Positions 21,888-59,254 of a DNA stretch of 64,000 bases are shown here, piece after piece. Position 1 is the stretch's first letter. The number at the start of each line of letters is the position of its first letter. The notes below the pieces were generated by a model. It worked only from the letters and a program-made list of their open reading frames with translations. It was not told the origin of the DNA and searched no databases. The stretch lies in the IMG/VR virus record IMGVR_UViG_3300028045_000001, positions 64,001-128,000 of that record. The stretch is one strand, 5' to 3'. A program made the position numbers and the translations under genes. The stretch is from a virus.

Positions 21888-24464
21888 ATGGTAACGAACG
21901 GGGCTATAGCTGCACTACATTCCTACGTGATAGAGAACATATGGAATGAACCGCACAAAGAATCTAGAACAAATATTAAACCGGTTAAGGTATATACTGA
22001 ATCGCGGATTAATGCCATGTTCATAAATGACACCCAAGTACAATTGCCTACTAATGAGCCATATTTTATTATGTATATAAATAAGGGCGATTTACCTGGA
22101 CCGGCAATTGCAGATGGCTGGACGTCTGGGACGGAACTCATTATAAAATATCGAAGAATAGTGGAAATATTTTCTGAGAAAGGATGCATGTTTCCAAAAA
22201 ACTCATTCTATTTATTGTTCGATCTGACTATAGATACGATCATTATAGCTGTAAAAAAATCTATGTTCATCCAGTTAGGTGTCATTGGGCAAGATACGTA
22301 CGTCTCGACCTGGTCCGACTCCACGATAGAAGATAATTATACTGTAACTTCCAGCCGCATAAGTAATGAGATAGATCAATCCAATATGTTCGATTTAAGT
22401 TATGACGGGACATTGTATGTAAATGGAAGAATCTCTTCTCCGATAGCTCCTGCACAAATTCCAATCGGATCCTATGTGGAACATGTCAAAGATGACGATG
22501 TGAAAATAAAATTTCGTATCGACTTAGATGATCCATATGAGAACAGAATGTATCTTGACGCCTCTGGGGTACAACGACAAATAATCCATACGCCAAAGGC
22601 ATTAAATCCAGATGGACTGATACTTACTTTAAATACTGTCAAGGTTTATGCTAGAAAAAAGATCGGAGACCTATCTGGAATTCTTGTAAGTGATGCAACC
22701 TACAACCATAACTTTTCACAAATTACACACGCCGATTTCGGAATACCAAGGTACATAATAGAGGATGCCCAGAGTATACTTGGGGTGGACAACATATATC
22801 TTGAAGTACATATCAGCATGTATGGTAATGATAATGTTGTCACGCAAGATAATAATTACATTAATCAATTATACGGCCTGAGCGATGTCGAAATAGTTAG
22901 GATATTATCCGGAGAGGAGGCCACCCTCCCATTCTGGTCGGCCGAAGTGTTGCAAGAGACCCCATATCTAAAAGCTTTCTACGAAGTAGAGGAGAATCCA
23001 AGCTGGGGATACTTTACAAGTATACTTGGCTGCTACTATGCGACTTCTTTGTTATCCAAGGTTATGTTCTCCTTTGATTTAGGGGATGTGGCAACTGACG
23101 TAATAACGATAAGTAAGGATTACATTGCCTCCGATTCCTCCCAAGTCATACTGTTTGAAGATGGGCTAAAGATAAGTGACGAGTATTTCATATCCAACGA
23201 TCTTGGGAACGCGGTATCATTCGAGTTCAATAGTGCGTTCACACCAAAGAATGATTCTGCATACAACGGTCGTATAATTGAAAGAATCCAAACTGATAAG
23301 TTCCATAAGTATACGTCGACGAGTGGAGACGAAGAACTAACCTTTAATTTTAAACCTATGGTGTACCTACAGGGCGAGTTCACTGCTATAAAACTATCAG
23401 ACATGTTGATGGAAGACAGGTCCATTTATTGGCAATCATTGACTCAGACGAATGTTTACAATTCATCTGTAGATAATAATGATGGGACATGGACGCTGGC
23501 CTTCACTCCATTGGCGATAGATCGAACATTCATTATAGCAGAAGACTTGCCTGAAAACTTGATTACTCCAACTTATCATAAGTATGACCTATCCGAATTG
23601 AAAACAAATAATAAACCATTTGTGTTTGATCTGATATGTAAAGATATAAATGATGTGGATGTTCCGATATTAAAATTGAATAGTCTGCTGATCTATCTTA
23701 ATGGTAAAAAATTAACTATGGGAATTGATTACAAGATAGCTACCATAGCGTATGATGAGCGGATTGTTGCACATCAAATTTGCATAACTTCATTATCTTA
23801 CATACGACGAGTTGGCAGCAATGCGTGTGAGGTGTACACTAATAATGAATATGAACTATTTAATCATCTTGGGTTCGCTGCATATACGGACCTTGGTGTA
23901 CTACCTATGAAGGGATCGTATTTTAAAGATTTATCCGAGCTCACCGTATTAGGTCGGTTGATCACAAACCCAAGGGTAGTTGCGGATAGCTTGCATGTGG
24001 ATGATCCAACGTACATGGCTTGCTCGCCGTACAGTATAAATACCCGCATACCCGAGGCAGCAAATAAAAGTATAGAGGGGTATTTAAAAATTGCCCAGAA
24101 CAAAAAGATAGCTACGATCCAGGACTATGTCAGTAACCTCGATACGCATCAGTTAGGGGCATTTGTCACACCACCGTTCTTTTATAGGCTTTACTCTATC
24201 TATACCCAGGTATTGTGCAAGGACATCTTGTTGGGGAAGATAACTGCAATACCCAATGATCCAGATGGAATAGATGATACTGCGACATTCTCAAAGTATC
24301 AATTGCTCAAAGAACATGATATCGTATATGGCACCGATGTTAATTGGGACTACATTGATGCGGATGTAATGCACTCAGATGTAGTGACTTCTCCAAGCAA
24401 ATACGCTATGATAAATACTATAAGGGGCCTGTTGCCAAAAGACAACATAAAGGATGATAATTAA
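21888..24464 (+). CDS. Large beta-rich structural protein, probable baseplate or tail
   Basis: 858 aa, no family assigned. Strand-rich throughout, with repeated surface-protein-like segments (for example SSQVILFEDGLKISDEYFIS), as in tail or baseplate proteins of jumbo myophages. ATG 21888 has GGTGA five bases upstream; GTG 21879 is an alternative. The next gene follows within two bases, so the two are translated together. Confidence 0.75.
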   Translation: MVTNGAIAALHSYVIENIWNEPHKESRTNIKPVKVYTESRINAMFINDTQVQLPTNEPYFIMYINKGDLPGPAIADGWTSGTELIIKYRRIVEIFSEKGCMFPKNSFYLLFDLTIDTIIIAVKKSMFIQLGVIGQDTYVSTWSDSTIEDNYTVTSSRISNEIDQSNMFDLSYDGTLYVNGRISSPIAPAQIPIGSYVEHVKDDDVKIKFRIDLDDPYENRMYLDASGVQRQIIHTPKALNPDGLILTLNTVKVYARKKIGDLSGILVSDATYNHNFSQITHADFGIPRYIIEDAQSILGVDNIYLEVHISMYGNDNVVTQDNNYINQLYGLSDVEIVRILSGEEATLPFWSAEVLQETPYLKAFYEVEENPSWGYFTSILGCYYATSLLSKVMFSFDLGDVATDVITISKDYIASDSSQVILFEDGLKISDEYFISNDLGNAVSFEFNSAFTPKNDSAYNGRIIERIQTDKFHKYTSTSGDEELTFNFKPMVYLQGEFTAIKLSDMLMEDRSIYWQSLTQTNVYNSSVDNNDGTWTLAFTPLAIDRTFIIAEDLPENLITPTYHKYDLSELKTNNKPFVFDLICKDINDVDVPILKLNSLLIYLNGKKLTMGIDYKIATIAYDERIVAHQICITSLSYIRRVGSNACEVYTNNEYELFNHLGFAAYTDLGVLPMKGSYFKDLSELTVLGRLITNPRVVADSLHVDDPTYMACSPYSINTRIPEAANKSIEGYLKIAQNKKIATIQDYVSNLDTHQLGAFVTPPFFYRLYSIYTQVLCKDILLGKITAIPNDPDGIDDTATFSKYQLLKEHDIVYGTDVNWDYIDADVMHSDVVTSPSKYAMINTIRGLLPKDNIKDDN

Positions 24465-37890: not shown

Positions 37891-38730
37891 CTACACGATG
37901 TAATAAAGTAATCTGTTGAACTCCCTTTTATCGGCAATGATACTGGACCTTGAGAATTTTCTTAATTTTTCATTATATTCTGCTTCTTGATTTTCCCAGC
38001 TCCTGACTTTTTCAGCAAATGCCCCTATCTCAAATCCTCCTTCAATTCTTCCTTTATCCAATGACAATATTAGCTTATTATAAATATGCGCCTTTACTGC
38101 ACATACAGCTAAATCAACAAAAGATTGATACGCTGCCTCGCCAAGATTGTTTAAGTCCTTGTCATAATTAATCTTGAACGTTAGTACATAATTTAAGTGA
38201 GACTGAGTGGCTGGTATCAATTGGATTATGTTGGTACCAACTACTTCGGCTATTTGTGAGACACTTTCAGTTGCACCGGAGATCATTTCTATAACTCTTC
38301 CTCCAGCACCTGCCATTGTGTTAGTACCTCCAAGTCTAGAAAGCGAAAGGATTCCCGTCGCGTCACCAGTGGCGTTATCGAACACGGATGGGTAATTAAT
38401 AGATGTGACCGATGTTATATCGCCACCCTCTAATAGTTCTTTCGGTATTCTATAGATAGAGTATCGTCCTGAGGACCTTCGTTTATCGTTGTCATTTAAC
38501 TCTGGCATCACCGCCATTTCTTCCCTTAACATTATATCCTTGGTTCGAGCGCCCCTTAGATTTATATCTGGTAGTACCCAGGTGCCAAGGACTTGTTCCC
38601 TTATTACATTGTCTACATTGATCCTATTATCTCTCTTAGGATTAAATACCACATCAAGTATCTCTTTTGGCACAGTATTTGATAATCTCACAAAAAAAGT
38701 CTCTATTGGGTTGAATGAGCCACCAGGCAT
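37891..38730 (-). CDS. Probable virion structural protein
   Basis: 279 aa, not recognised. It has a Gly/Ala-rich middle (about 140-170) and a C-terminal helical region with many charged residues. I start at 38730 (MPGGSFNPIE) with AGGAGG seven bases upstream; the longer frame to 38922 overlaps the divergent small gene. First gene of the minus operon with the two internal-head-like paralogs. Confidence 0.7.
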   Translation of the reverse strand: MPGGSFNPIETFFVRLSNTVPKEILDVVFNPKRDNRINVDNVIREQVLGTWVLPDINLRGARTKDIMLREEMAVMPELNDNDKRRSSGRYSIYRIPKELLEGGDITSVTSINYPSVFDNATGDATGILSLSRLGGTNTMAGAGGRVIEMISGATESVSQIAEVVGTNIIQLIPATQSHLNYVLTFKINYDKDLNNLGEAAYQSFVDLAVCAVKAHIYNKLILSLDKGRIEGGFEIGAFAEKVRSWENQEAEYNEKLRKFSRSSIIADKREFNRLLYYIV

Positions 38731-38842: not shown

Positions 38843-39076
38843 ATGGACAAAACAAAGCAGCCTCTTTCAAAGGTATTGTCAATGAAGCCAACAGAAGCTG
38901 ATCTTGGCTCCAGTGAGTTCAAAGAATTATGGAACTACATTAAGTCTTGGGAGATAAAAGTTCCCGGAGATACTGTCCACGATAGGGGGAGACCAGCAGG
39001 TCAGCATGTAATGGATATTCTGGTAGCAGTCGGCCTAAGGAACTCAGCCGATTATTTTAAATCAGATACAGAGTAA
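38843..39076 (+). CDS. Small protein, unknown
   Basis: 77 aa. A good SD (TTAGGAG) precedes ATG 38843. Soluble and charged, with DTVHDRGRPAGQHVMDIL as its most distinctive stretch. Divergent from the structural operon. The upstream gap contains TTATATAATAATC, a poor match to the phiKZ-type promoter. No homolog recognised. Confidence 0.7.
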   Translation: MDKTKQPLSKVLSMKPTEADLGSSEFKELWNYIKSWEIKVPGDTVHDRGRPAGQHVMDILVAVGLRNSADYFKSDTE

Positions 39077-39198
39077 TTCAGTCTAATATAAAAAAAGGGG
39101 GGGAGTCCCAATGTTTTATTTACTGACCGATCTTCAAAGTCTAAGAGTATAATAGACGTACTTTAAATGACTTTATTAAAATTATAAGATAGATAATC

Positions 39199-39232
39199 CA
39201 CAGGGCTGTGAGCATATGCTCACAGCCCTGTG
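39199..39232 (+). terminator. Perfect palindrome terminator
   Basis: A 34-base palindrome without spacer (arms 39199-39215 and 39216-39232). It closes the unit of the 77-aa gene and sits 31 bases before the promoter of the noncoding block. The 39077-39198 stretch before it holds only a homopolymer tract (seven A then seven G near 39092-39105) and no gene. Confidence 0.8.
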
Positions 39233-39263
39233 AGTAAATTGAATGTCTTTTAATTTTTTTCAT

Positions 39264-39274
39264 TTATATATTAC
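39264..39274 (+). promoter_or_regulatory. phiKZ-type early promoter of the noncoding block
   Basis: Exact TTATATATTAC followed by TATAATGA, as good a match as any in the window. No gene of more than about a dozen codons lies downstream before the hairpin at 39858. Confidence 0.7.
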
Positions 39275-39900
39275 TATAATGAACATAGAAATTGTGACTT
39301 TACTTTTCCAAGTATAGTTATGGTTACTATGCTCTACTTTACTCCGATATCGGCATTCATATAAATGTGATTGAAACTTGTAGTTGGAAGGAGGTGAAGT
39401 CTAAAGTGGTAGATCTAGTGACACTAAATTAAAATAATTTGGAGTCCCTGATCGCCAGTGCTTATTGATTCATGTGTAGGAGAGTTCTCCTAACCTACGC
39501 AAATTGCATTAGAGTACTTGGAGAGGATGATCTTACGCATATGATGTGGGGATGCGGTCGTAACTAGTGTTATGGTTTAAGATTTTTAAAAATTAATAAT
39601 ACTATTCTTGGGACAATGACTAGAGTGGGGTAGCGTTGTTTTACATTTAATTGAAGTTTAATTTCAGGAAATGGAGATCAAAGATATGTGGGATAGATTT
39701 GATGTTTTAAGAATGTAACGATATAATTGAACGATAAGTTTTTTAAAATAATAAACTTTCGCTTTAGGTTAGTATGTGAACTGTATATACATTTCTCTTC
39801 ATAAGCATATTGACCTATGCCGACTATCGGTATATATGTATTGATGGCGTTCAAAAGGTTGATTTGATAATGGCGATGTTTTGACTATTATCAAATCAAC
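39275..39900 (+). ncRNA. Candidate long structured noncoding RNA, about 620 nt
   Basis: A gene-free stretch between a phiKZ-type promoter and a 14-bp hairpin, in a genome where other gaps are mostly under 300 bases. Stops are dense in all frames. Local helices are visible: 39477-39492 (6 bp, with a competing 7-bp pairing of 39474-39480 and 39494-39500), 39533-39563 (TTACGCAT with ATGC..CGTAA, bulged), and 39816-39834 (8 bp, 3-base loop). An unusually long SD-like AAGGAGGTGA near 39389-39397 precedes a GTG at 39406 that opens only eight sense codons. A second tiny frame starts at ATG 39684 (10 codons). It could be a large phage RNA of the GOLLD/ROOL kind in concept, but I cannot show homology. 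It might instead be a decayed gene. Confidence 0.5.
39858..39900. terminator. Hairpin terminator at a convergent junction
   Basis: A 14-bp perfect stem (39858-39871 with 39887-39900) and a 15-base loop, facing the end of the SbcC-like gene at 39942. The loop contains GGCGAT, complementary to ATCGCC near 39450 in the same transcript, so a long-range contact is possible. Confidence 0.65.
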
Positions 39901-39941
39901 TACCTTGATGATCTCAATTAGTTACCGTGTTTCTTTTTTAT

Positions 39942-55610: not shown

Positions 55611-57161
55611 ATGTCACATCTCTTTCACACATACATGGCACGTAGAACTAAAACTGAGTCTACGAAAGATATGCCATTTAGTGAACAAGTCTGGATAAAC
55701 AATGCAACCTCAGCTTACGATGCCTTATCATTGCGACACAAAATTATACATTGTGTCAGGCAACGTTTTATACATTCATATTTTAAGCATGTTTGTGATA
55801 TATATCATGTCGATGGCCCATCTATTTTTACGGACATGGAAGCCGAATTTAATCGAAGGGAGAAGCGGATTGATGACGAGATCAATTATGCTAACGTAGG
55901 AGACTATGACGATGCTTGGTCCATAGCTAAGTCATTCATCACCCGTTGCAGATACATTAAGGGATACATGCCACCGAACGAAGCTCGTGAATTGGTCAGG
56001 CCAGATATTAATGATATCATGGGATTTTTTATAGATCAGAATACAGAAGAAAATTTTGTACCGAGTGTAGGTGGGCTTGATGCAATTAAAGGGATAGTTG
56101 CCTTCATTTTATATGCGGTAAAGCAACATGTTCCGATAACTGAAATGGATACCTTTATTCCGGATCCTTGTGTCCTATATCCAATGTATTCTGGGAATGG
56201 AGTTGTCTGGGTGAATAAAGTCCAAGTAGCCGAGCCGGGCTACTTACCCGAACGCAAGCTTCGGGAAGACTATAAATTTCATGATCATATATTAAGCTAT
56301 TTGAACATGCTGAACTTATCCGGCCAAGATTTTAACGCCATCATGCTATCCCTTTCATGCTTAGCGGTTGTAAATGACTCCCGCTCTGCGACAGGCTTTC
56401 AAAGATTATGTAATGTTGTAAACAATTATTATCTTAGCGGACAAAGACTCTCCAATAAATGGGAGGCTAAACTACCAGCACCTATATTCTTAGCAACAAT
56501 GAGATTTATGAGTGCACTGGTGACCGAGAATAATGTAAAAGTAGACAATCTTCACCTGTTGCATTTCATCTATGATCATGCACCTCCAATATATGCAAAT
56601 CTTGGCGATGTTGTCAAAAAGGCAATTGGAGGCCGGTATGTAAACCAGCATGAGGTGGCTATGCTAAAGAAATATGGCATTTCTAAAATAGTGCCAATGA
56701 AACGTAGCTATGATCTTTATAATCATATAAGGATGAATGCGGCTGACGATGATTTAGGTGAAGATGAATCAGTTACTGAAAATGATACAGGTGAGGGCGA
56801 CGGAGAAGAGGTTACTGGCGATAAGAACGTTGATGCCGGTGACGCGGATTCTGATACTAACATTTCAGATCCAGATGCAGACGGATCTGCCGAAGGGGAG
56901 GAGGAACCTGAAGAAACCCATATCGTAAAGATTGATGACGCTGGTATAGAATTTGAATTAAGTAGCGGTAATCTCTCATTTGCTGAATATATTTTGAGAG
57001 AAAGAATTATAAAACGATTGAATACAATATTGGCCAACCCAGGTAATCTTTCGGCAGAGAAAGTTGAATACTTAAAGTATTTCAGAAATCACTGGATTTA
57101 CTTGGTCAGTATAAACACTCTGTTGGCAATAACAAAAAATCTCAATATTGAAGGAGTTTGA
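55611..57161 (+). CDS. Candidate head scaffold/assembly protein
   Basis: 516 aa, not matched to a family. It ends two bases before the capsid gene, whose SD lies inside its last codons, so the two are coupled. Residues about 385-440 are extremely acidic and repetitive in Asp/Glu/Gly (for example GEGDGEEV), and charged helices flank this. Such a protein next to a major capsid gene fits a scaffold or core protein, probably trimmed or expelled during maturation. That is inferred from context. The SD AGGAGG is strong. Confidence 0.55.
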   Translation: MSHLFHTYMARRTKTESTKDMPFSEQVWINNATSAYDALSLRHKIIHCVRQRFIHSYFKHVCDIYHVDGPSIFTDMEAEFNRREKRIDDEINYANVGDYDDAWSIAKSFITRCRYIKGYMPPNEARELVRPDINDIMGFFIDQNTEENFVPSVGGLDAIKGIVAFILYAVKQHVPITEMDTFIPDPCVLYPMYSGNGVVWVNKVQVAEPGYLPERKLREDYKFHDHILSYLNMLNLSGQDFNAIMLSLSCLAVVNDSRSATGFQRLCNVVNNYYLSGQRLSNKWEAKLPAPIFLATMRFMSALVTENNVKVDNLHLLHFIYDHAPPIYANLGDVVKKAIGGRYVNQHEVAMLKKYGISKIVPMKRSYDLYNHIRMNAADDDLGEDESVTENDTGEGDGEEVTGDKNVDAGDADSDTNISDPDADGSAEGEEEPEETHIVKIDDAGIEFELSSGNLSFAEYILRERIIKRLNTILANPGNLSAEKVEYLKYFRNHWIYLVSINTLLAITKNLNIEGV

Positions 57162-57163
57162 AC

Positions 57164-59254
57164 ATGTTTCTAAATGAAATACTTTCTAGTATCGATGACA
57201 ACCATGATAATAAGGGCGATCTTGCTGCTGCCGGTGCGACAGCTATTGGGCGCAAGATCACAAAAACGGTAAATCAATGGACTGCCCACAACAACCTTGA
57301 CGGGACAGTAGGGACGTATCAAGTACCAGCTGTAAACTCTGCACTTGATGAGCACACACTCGAATCAATAGGGGTCGAAGCCATAGATGCGCTTGTAAAA
57401 TCCTGTGATATCACATCTGGTTCCCTCCAGGCAAAGAAACTTGTTGCTATCGATATTGCAAAGAATGCTGTCTGTTCTGGACCGGACATCATGTCTCTCC
57501 AAAATATGATGGACCCTATGAACTCGGAAGTTCAGTTTACTGATCCTGGGACACTATCATTCTTCCCAAGCTCTGTCCCCGATGCACATGCATTTGGTTC
57601 GGATATCGATAAGGTATCATCCGATTTACGTCTCACACTTTCAGTGGACATTATGTCATTTCATAATCGAATTGCCCACAGGTTGATGCACGTTAAACCA
57701 ACTCCAGATGCAATCATTCGCTATCGAAAAGTGAAAGCAGTGGTCTTCAACAACCAGGATATGGATGCTGCCACGATGGAGCTTGTGGATCTGTATGAAG
57801 ATGCATCGATCGTTAGTCCTACGCTTCCCAAAGTTATTCCACGGACAGCGAATGGTGCTCCAGAAGAGGGATACATAGAGCCAGGTTCAGATGATCTGTT
57901 TAAACTATCGATTGATGCTTCCAAGCCAGGGTACTCCTCTTACAATCGACAGGACACTATTGCTGATGGTGCCTTCATTGATAAGGTCAAGTGGGAAATT
58001 GGCCCAGATGCCGCTGGTCGATCTGATATGATCTATACCGTGGGTAAAGCGCGGGGCAAGCTTGGATTTACCACAAACTCCGAAGCATCTATGCGTACGC
58101 TATTCTTTGAGACCGACATCATTGTCGACAAAACAACAGAAGATGCCAGTGGTACTGCTGCTGCAGCTTTTGCTGGCATCCATGCGGATGACCAACTGGT
58201 AATTAAGTTGACACTCACTGTGAGACTTCACCTTCGCACCGGCGACATAAATACTACCGGAAGCGTTGCTGCAGTTAAAGTGGAAAAGAAGGGTGGGGGC
58301 ATAGCACAGCCGAGTTCTACTACCGCTCTAGAGGCTATCCAAACAGGCGTGGCGTTTACGAAAATATCTTCATATGCGATTGATGCAAGATTCTCAGAAG
58401 AAAATCTTCGAAAATCTTCTATTGAGATTGAAGCGATCCATTCCGAACTTGCTTACAACCTTCCAACTGGAGTTAACTACTTTTACAGCGAACCACTCAT
58501 GGGGAAAAAGAAAGATGACCGAGCGGTTGAGCTGCTGACTTCAATCATTGGGATCGGCCAGGATAAGAAAGTTGCAGGCGAGATCGAGCAGGTACTTAAT
58601 GATATCACGTCCGCTATTACTGTTACAGACGATAGTTACTCACACAATGGTGCTGGTACAAGCTATGCAGCCGGATCACTGGTACGGCCATTTGTATATA
58701 CTGGAAATATTGACTGTAACGATTTCAAAACACATGAAATCTCAAATCTGCCATATGATGTTAAACAATTTGTTATGACAACAATTGGAAATGTTCTGGA
58801 CAGAATTCATGCGACCAGTTTCTTTCCGCAACAGCTGGCAGGAAGAGCTCCCACATATAAGGTGCTAACTTCCGGGGACATCATCTCCAAGCTTTTCTCT
58901 CAGCCACGGATGGCAATTGCAGGACAACCGGACAAGTCCACCACTCTTGAGGGTGGATCTTCGTACAGACTGGAACTTCCAAATGGAGCCATCATTGAAC
59001 TTCATGCATCTACCCAGGCAGAGCATGCAGATAAAATTATCGGTATCCCATATGTGAGCGATCCAAATTCTGAACTTAACTTCGGAGCAAATTGGACATT
59101 CGGCATTGCAGTGGCCCATTATGTAAAGACTGGCGCGGCTGTTGCAAAACGCATTGTTGCTAACTCAAGGGAGGCATTCATTCCTACGAACCCACTTGGA
59201 TTCCTATTGAGTGTACGTAACCTTGATGATATTCTAAGTAACTACAAGGACTAG
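57164..59254 (+). CDS. Major capsid protein
   Basis: 696 aa, probable HK97-fold capsid subunit of the phiKZ-type size class. An N-terminal helical region (about 1-100) may be cleaved at maturation. A strand-rich middle follows, then a helix and strand pattern ending in SREAFIPTNPLGFLLSVRNL. AAGGAG lies seven bases before ATG 57164; TTG 57158 is rejected because it overlaps the previous stop. Codon choice is visibly more regular and richer in C- and G-ending codons than in neighbouring genes, as expected of the most abundant virion protein. A strong terminator follows. The fold is inferred; I see no single diagnostic motif. Confidence 0.72.
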   Translation: MFLNEILSSIDDNHDNKGDLAAAGATAIGRKITKTVNQWTAHNNLDGTVGTYQVPAVNSALDEHTLESIGVEAIDALVKSCDITSGSLQAKKLVAIDIAKNAVCSGPDIMSLQNMMDPMNSEVQFTDPGTLSFFPSSVPDAHAFGSDIDKVSSDLRLTLSVDIMSFHNRIAHRLMHVKPTPDAIIRYRKVKAVVFNNQDMDAATMELVDLYEDASIVSPTLPKVIPRTANGAPEEGYIEPGSDDLFKLSIDASKPGYSSYNRQDTIADGAFIDKVKWEIGPDAAGRSDMIYTVGKARGKLGFTTNSEASMRTLFFETDIIVDKTTEDASGTAAAAFAGIHADDQLVIKLTLTVRLHLRTGDINTTGSVAAVKVEKKGGGIAQPSSTTALEAIQTGVAFTKISSYAIDARFSEENLRKSSIEIEAIHSELAYNLPTGVNYFYSEPLMGKKKDDRAVELLTSIIGIGQDKKVAGEIEQVLNDITSAITVTDDSYSHNGAGTSYAAGSLVRPFVYTGNIDCNDFKTHEISNLPYDVKQFVMTTIGNVLDRIHATSFFPQQLAGRAPTYKVLTSGDIISKLFSQPRMAIAGQPDKSTTLEGGSSYRLELPNGAIIELHASTQAEHADKIIGIPYVSDPNSELNFGANWTFGIAVAHYVKTGAAVAKRIVANSREAFIPTNPLGFLLSVRNLDDILSNYKD

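Follow-up and report, generated by a model that had tools for sequence, protein, structure and literature searches.

Results

The locus and its flanking genes

The analyzed window, a stretch of 64,000 nt to which all coordinates refer unless the genome is named, corresponds to positions 64001-128000 of a virus record of 239,960 bp. A phiKZ-like gene set was found in the window (terminase, tail sheath, virion proteins, topoisomerase, RuvC-like and SbcC-like proteins), and a homologue of PHIKZ055, an RNA polymerase subunit, is encoded outside it in the same genome. The identity of TerL to that of named phages did not exceed approximately 34%, which places the virus far from any cultured relative. 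Queries with PHIKZ039 (PhuZ) and PHIKZ054 (chimallin) were empty, a result of single-sequence searches only that is not evidence of absence.

With long ORFs of the same genome as its training set, a codon-pair gene model called 243 genes, and the longest called gap of the genome (1,019 nt) spanned positions 38923-39941. After the addition of a small ORF reaching into this gap (Table 1), the non-coding block at 39077-39941 (865 nt) represented the longest non-coding gap of the genome; the second-longest called gap (596 nt) contains an ORF overlooked by the gene caller. The small ORF, preceded by AGGAG and with no family match, is probably real, and would be the final probable protein gene ahead of the block. 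It was skipped because the gene caller had begun the phrog_3179 gene, on its left, at a false TTG further upstream; the start of the phrog_3179 gene is probably near position 38730, since the family match begins only at residue 71.

Table 1. Coordinates of genes, signals and predicted structures at the analyzed locus.
Feature	Coordinates	Strand	Basis or remark
Small ORF, 77 aa	38843-39076	+	AGGAG upstream; no family match
Perfect 17+17 palindrome	39199-39232		123 nt past the small ORF; divides it from the block
phiKZ-type promoter, core TTATATATTACT at 39264-39275	39238-39284	+	Genome-wide promoter profile
Proposed non-coding RNA, about 620 nt	39285-39905	+	No coding signal, fold z; ends inferred
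16S 3'-tail complement AAGGAGGTGA, 10 nt	39388-39397	+	Unique in the genome
12-codon GTG frame; 8 codons from GTG at 39406	39394-39432	+	Behind the SD-like stretch
Predicted long stem	39473-39539	+	39473-39481/39531-39539 and 39484-39489/39523-39528
Predicted stems, most significant internal part	39765-39847	+	39765-39777/39805-39817 and 39824-39833/39838-39847; z -3.8
Terminal hairpin (predicted stem of 17 bp)	39857-39901	+	Proposed 3' end; 42 nt from the SbcC-like stop
SbcC-like gene, 845 aa	39942-42479	-	Converges on the block; neighbour, outside the proposed RNA

None of the six frames of the block carried a coding signal, the best score over 150 nt being -0.03, compared with 0.097 at the 5th percentile of true genes. 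The original prediction had emphasized that stops crowd all frames; this is correct, yet usual in non-coding DNA, as the longest stop-free run on the plus strand (44 codons, against a mean of 53 in shuffled sequences) is at chance level, and the absent coding signal is the stronger fact. Open stretches of the block gave no convincing family match in PHROG or Pfam, and the block showed no similarity to the called proteins of the phage or of the cassette of its near relative G001 (see below). A decayed gene was rejected for this lack of coding signal and protein similarity. The search for an antisense target of the block within the genome gave no significant match.

Promoter and gene-end signals

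The phiKZ-type promoter predicted at 39264 was recovered (TTATATATTACTATAATGAA from 39264, with upstream elements common to other sites) as a strong full-length copy (score 34.5) in a profile of TTATATATTAC sites, which comprised 45 promoters in the genome, 43 of them on the plus strand. Behind 40 of these 43, the same strand carries an SD-led ORF (at least 35 codons) whose start is at most 320 nt away (typically about 70 nt), and two of the remaining three lead called small genes, at 58 and 150 nt. The promoter at 39264 is the only one of the 43 with no plus-strand gene behind it, the next such gene being 3,532 nt off, past the SbcC-like gene. The consensus described for phiKZ promoters is TATATTAC (PMC7058600), and in the analyzed genome this core is repeated ahead of phage genes, as in phiKZ-type early promoters. 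By analogy, we infer early activity of the promoter at 39264, with a timing taken from phiKZ only. In addition, the promoters at genome positions 144598, 170970 and 171614 share a nearly identical leader (AACGAATAGGATAAGTTATATCGCCTGATTCATCGA...) ahead of different small genes, and thus constitute a repeated leader element.

The 34-base palindrome upstream of the promoter (CACAGGGCTGTGAGCAT/ATGCTCACAGCCCTGTG) was found to be perfect as well, although the insulating element proposed in the original prediction is ordinary in kind, being a member of the gene-end hairpin set of the genome. Throughout the genome, 79 perfect hairpins with arms of at least 12 bp were detected, of which 74 were intergenic, most of them either between converging genes or a few tens of nt past a plus-strand stop. 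Their arms measure 12-22 bp, a T run is often absent, and they represent a very regular gene-end signal. The 14-bp hairpin predicted at the end of the block was also perfect (39858-39871/39887-39900) and occupies the position typical between converging genes elsewhere in the genome, so that the block resembles any plus-strand gene converging on a minus-strand gene. Of the intergenic hairpins it has the highest A+T content; its loop is wide, and it may serve both the proposed RNA and the SbcC-like gene. Since it could equally serve the latter, and given its composition and loop, it is regarded here only as the putative 3' end of the RNA.

Predicted RNA fold and match to the 16S tail

The predicted folding energy of positions 39280-39905, end hairpin included, was -172.6 kcal/mol, compared with -138.1 kcal/mol for shuffled sequences (z -4.7). 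Random genome windows matched the z of the block at first because many contained gene-end hairpins, and the control was therefore redone on 80 windows free of them, among which the most negative z was -2.69 (mean -0.63). When the end hairpin was left out (39282-39852), z values ranged from -2.8 to -3.2 on the plus strand and from -1.4 to -1.9 on the minus strand. Under this folding model, the plus-strand signal is real but moderate, and its best-supported parts were 39282-39471 (z -3.1) and 39757-39852 (z -3.8).

At a finer scale, the predicted structure departed from the one originally drawn. Both rival pairings around 39474-39500 exist (the palindrome TAGGAGA/TCTCCTA and GTGTAGG/CCTACGC), but each is excluded by the first helix of the predicted long stem (Table 1), and the local helices proposed at 39533-39563 and 39816-39834 were missing as such among the high-probability helices, with stronger ones nearby, namely the two internal stems listed in Table 1. 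A contact of ATCGCC with GGCGAT in the terminal loop is possible but not significant: 29 of 500 shuffles did as well, and a long-range kissing contact was rejected on these grounds. In the predicted fold, the GATC of this contact is mostly paired to 39412-39415.

The stretch complementary to the 16S tail was located as predicted and occurs once in the 240 kb, both strands considered. At least 10 nt of 16S complement were found in 14 of 2000 shuffled blocks (a chance of about 0.7%), and the stretch is partly paired in the predicted ensemble. It does open an eight-codon GTG frame, at a spacing of 11 nt, but not only that one, as had been stated, since a 12-codon GTG frame is also present. This match, a single observation in a single sequence, is the only concrete hint at the action of the proposed RNA.

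Relatives of the phage and known RNA families

Protein-guided scans of viral and genome contigs resulted in one near relative, G001 (identities of 52-53% for TerL, 32% for the SbcC-like protein and 36% for the phrog_3179 protein), plus more distant ones. In G001, the interval from the phrog_3179 gene to the SbcC-like gene harbors small ORFs of 195, 57, 67 and 150 aa, accompanied by phiKZ-type promoter cores in the same direction, and nothing in it resembles the block except the promoter. Judged by eye only, the 150-aa ORF of this slot (L030:3130-4924) is a likely P-loop protein and the 67-aa ORF is similar to AbrB-type regulators. In a more distant relative (L032) another ORF directly follows the SbcC-like gene, hence no such gap exists. 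No DNA match to the block was found in phages, plasmids, viral contigs or genome contigs. An intact ORF at this place in related phages had been named in the original prediction as evidence against an RNA; G001 does carry small ORFs there, but none is similar to the block, which argues for a variable slot rather than for an intact version of the block. Judging from these sequence comparisons, the slot seems to accommodate varying cargo, and either an RNA gene carried as cargo or the loss of a gene would be compatible with this.

No covariance model of Rfam matched at the gathering score, either in the window or in the rest of the genome. At E values up to 10, the block gave weak chance matches only, mostly microRNA models on hairpins, and no bacterial large-RNA family. 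Neither tRNA nor tmRNA genes were found in the 64-kb window. For lack of a match, assigning the block to GOLLD, ROOL or another Rfam family is not supported.

Other structured non-coding stretches were found in the same genome. Genome positions 22632-23060 (approximately 430 nt, non-coding and strongly structured, plus strand) showed z values of -6.9 with the end hairpin and -3.8 without it (-0.85 on the minus strand, also without it), and had no Rfam family beyond chance microRNA matches and no DNA relative. At genome positions 55770-56020, a non-coding element of approximately 235 nt is closed by an 18-bp stem (TTGCAGGGCCTG...CAGGCCCTGCAA; z -4.7), with no Rfam family in the closed element and no DNA relative. 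A promoter-led structured leader of approximately 200 nt (genome positions 57493-57757) has a run of ten T at its end, ahead of the gene that starts at 57758; it resembles an attenuator or a 5'-UTR RNA, comparable to the p40 leader of phiKZ. No sequence was common to the block and the other structured gaps beyond chance. With at least three such further stretches, it is plausible that the phage uses RNA more widely.

Discussion

The block combines its own promoter and end with no coding signal and structure above background, the features of a phage non-coding RNA gene in general. We consider it rather probable, from sequence analysis, that it represents a real early non-coding RNA gene with no relative among the sequences searched. 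This reading is favored by the longest gap of the genome, devoid of coding signal and family match, by a strong promoter with no gene behind it, by a gene-end hairpin, a strand-specific fold and a unique 16S match, as well as by the other structured gaps of the genome and the non-coding RNAs known in phiKZ (PMC8545117) and phiR1-37 (PMC4848604). It is weakened by the lack of homologues, the moderate excess of folding, the A+T-rich, wide-loop hairpin and the protein genes in the slot of G001, and also by the SD-like stretch being partly paired and a single observation at a chance of about 0.7%. Thus, the original prediction held, on computational grounds, for a promoter-driven, hairpin-ended, non-coding unit with significant plus-strand structure, and failed for a large ornate RNA similar to GOLLD or ROOL, a likeness left unsupported by the absence of Rfam matches, of homologues and of a tRNA island in the window.

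As GOLLD and ROOL, the candidate is large, phage-borne, non-coding and of unknown function, and GOLLD has been reported as ribosome-bound in pull-downs (PMC12286853). However, both are widespread families, often located near tRNA genes (PMC12286853), while the candidate is an orphan with neither covariance-model match nor tRNA island; their elaborate structure is supported by covariation, while that of the candidate is a predicted fold. In phiKZ, a phage of the same broad group, non-coding RNAs of approximately 100 nt (from the 3' UTR of PHIKZ298) and 180 nt (from the 5' UTR of p40) have been described, the latter found partly in 30S fractions (PMC8545117). They are likewise structured and early, but are short pieces of mRNA ends, whereas the candidate, of approximately 620 nt, would be transcribed from a promoter of its own that leads no gene. 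They showed no sequence match to the block. A small RNA without ORF, from intragenic/intergenic sequence, was detected by RNA-seq in phiR1-37, a phiKZ-related phage (PMC4848604); its likeness to the candidate lies in its origin from an ORF-less stretch, although the block had no sequence match in the phage collection.

The main rival explanation, which we regard as unlikely, is an empty slot: the cargo gene would have been lost or replaced, leaving promoter and end hairpin around functionless DNA. The small promoter-led ORFs in the same slot of G001 agree with such a history, as does the failure to find anything similar to the block wherever it was searched, but the block retains neither remnants of an earlier reading frame nor similarity to proteins, the strand-specific structure exceeds that of the controls, and a dead stretch of 865 nt should shrink in an otherwise compact genome. 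Improbable, in our view, is a messenger for a very small peptide, in which the strong SD at 39388 would lead the 8- or 12-codon frame and the rest would be untranslated. Although AAGGAGGTGA ranks first among the SDs of the genome, with the longer frame starting inside it and the shorter one at 11-nt spacing, this explanation has to accommodate GTG starts, only 8-12 codons, approximately 470 nt of untranslated RNA after them and an SD partly paired in the predicted fold. Slightly less credible still is an antisense or collision regulator, where transcription from 39264 would run into or against the SbcC-like gene and lower its expression: the promoter does aim at this converging gene with no plus-strand gene between, but a hairpin of the gene-end type intervenes, and a structured spacer of 600 nt would be unnecessary. 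A DNA element (such as a replication origin, packaging or recombination site) instead of an RNA would agree with the long A+T-rich non-coding DNA and the perfect palindrome, but is very improbable, given that no iteron-type repeat array was found, that palindromes of the same class lie at gene ends genome-wide and that the folding signal is strand-specific.

If the block is an RNA gene, a phage RNA polymerase would start at the promoter at 39264, early if the timing of phiKZ applies, and would produce a plus-strand RNA of approximately 620 nt, with termination or trimming at the terminal hairpin, as the genome-wide hairpin pattern suggests. This RNA would fold beyond expectation and encode no protein of note, and it would probably act early in host takeover, as the small promoter-led genes carried in the slot of G001 suggest. 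Because one strong SD-like stretch is followed by almost nothing, it might dock on the 16S tail of 30S subunits via that stretch and compete with or regulate translation, a step that we consider doubtful. Bolder, and a long shot, is a large phage RNA of a new class, transcribed immediately upon entry and docking on the 16S tail by its unique 10-nt match, through which host translation would be shut down or redirected without a protein; the phage would carry a set of such RNAs, to which the other structured gaps might belong.

Few long non-coding RNAs are known from lytic phages, and their jobs are unknown. The early genes of phiKZ-like phages take over the host and, if true, a promoter-driven RNA in such a phage would make it possible to test cleanly whether RNA, besides protein, serves giant phages in this takeover. 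Looking for phage promoters that lead no gene would be a simple way of listing RNAs of this kind in the genomes of other giant phages.
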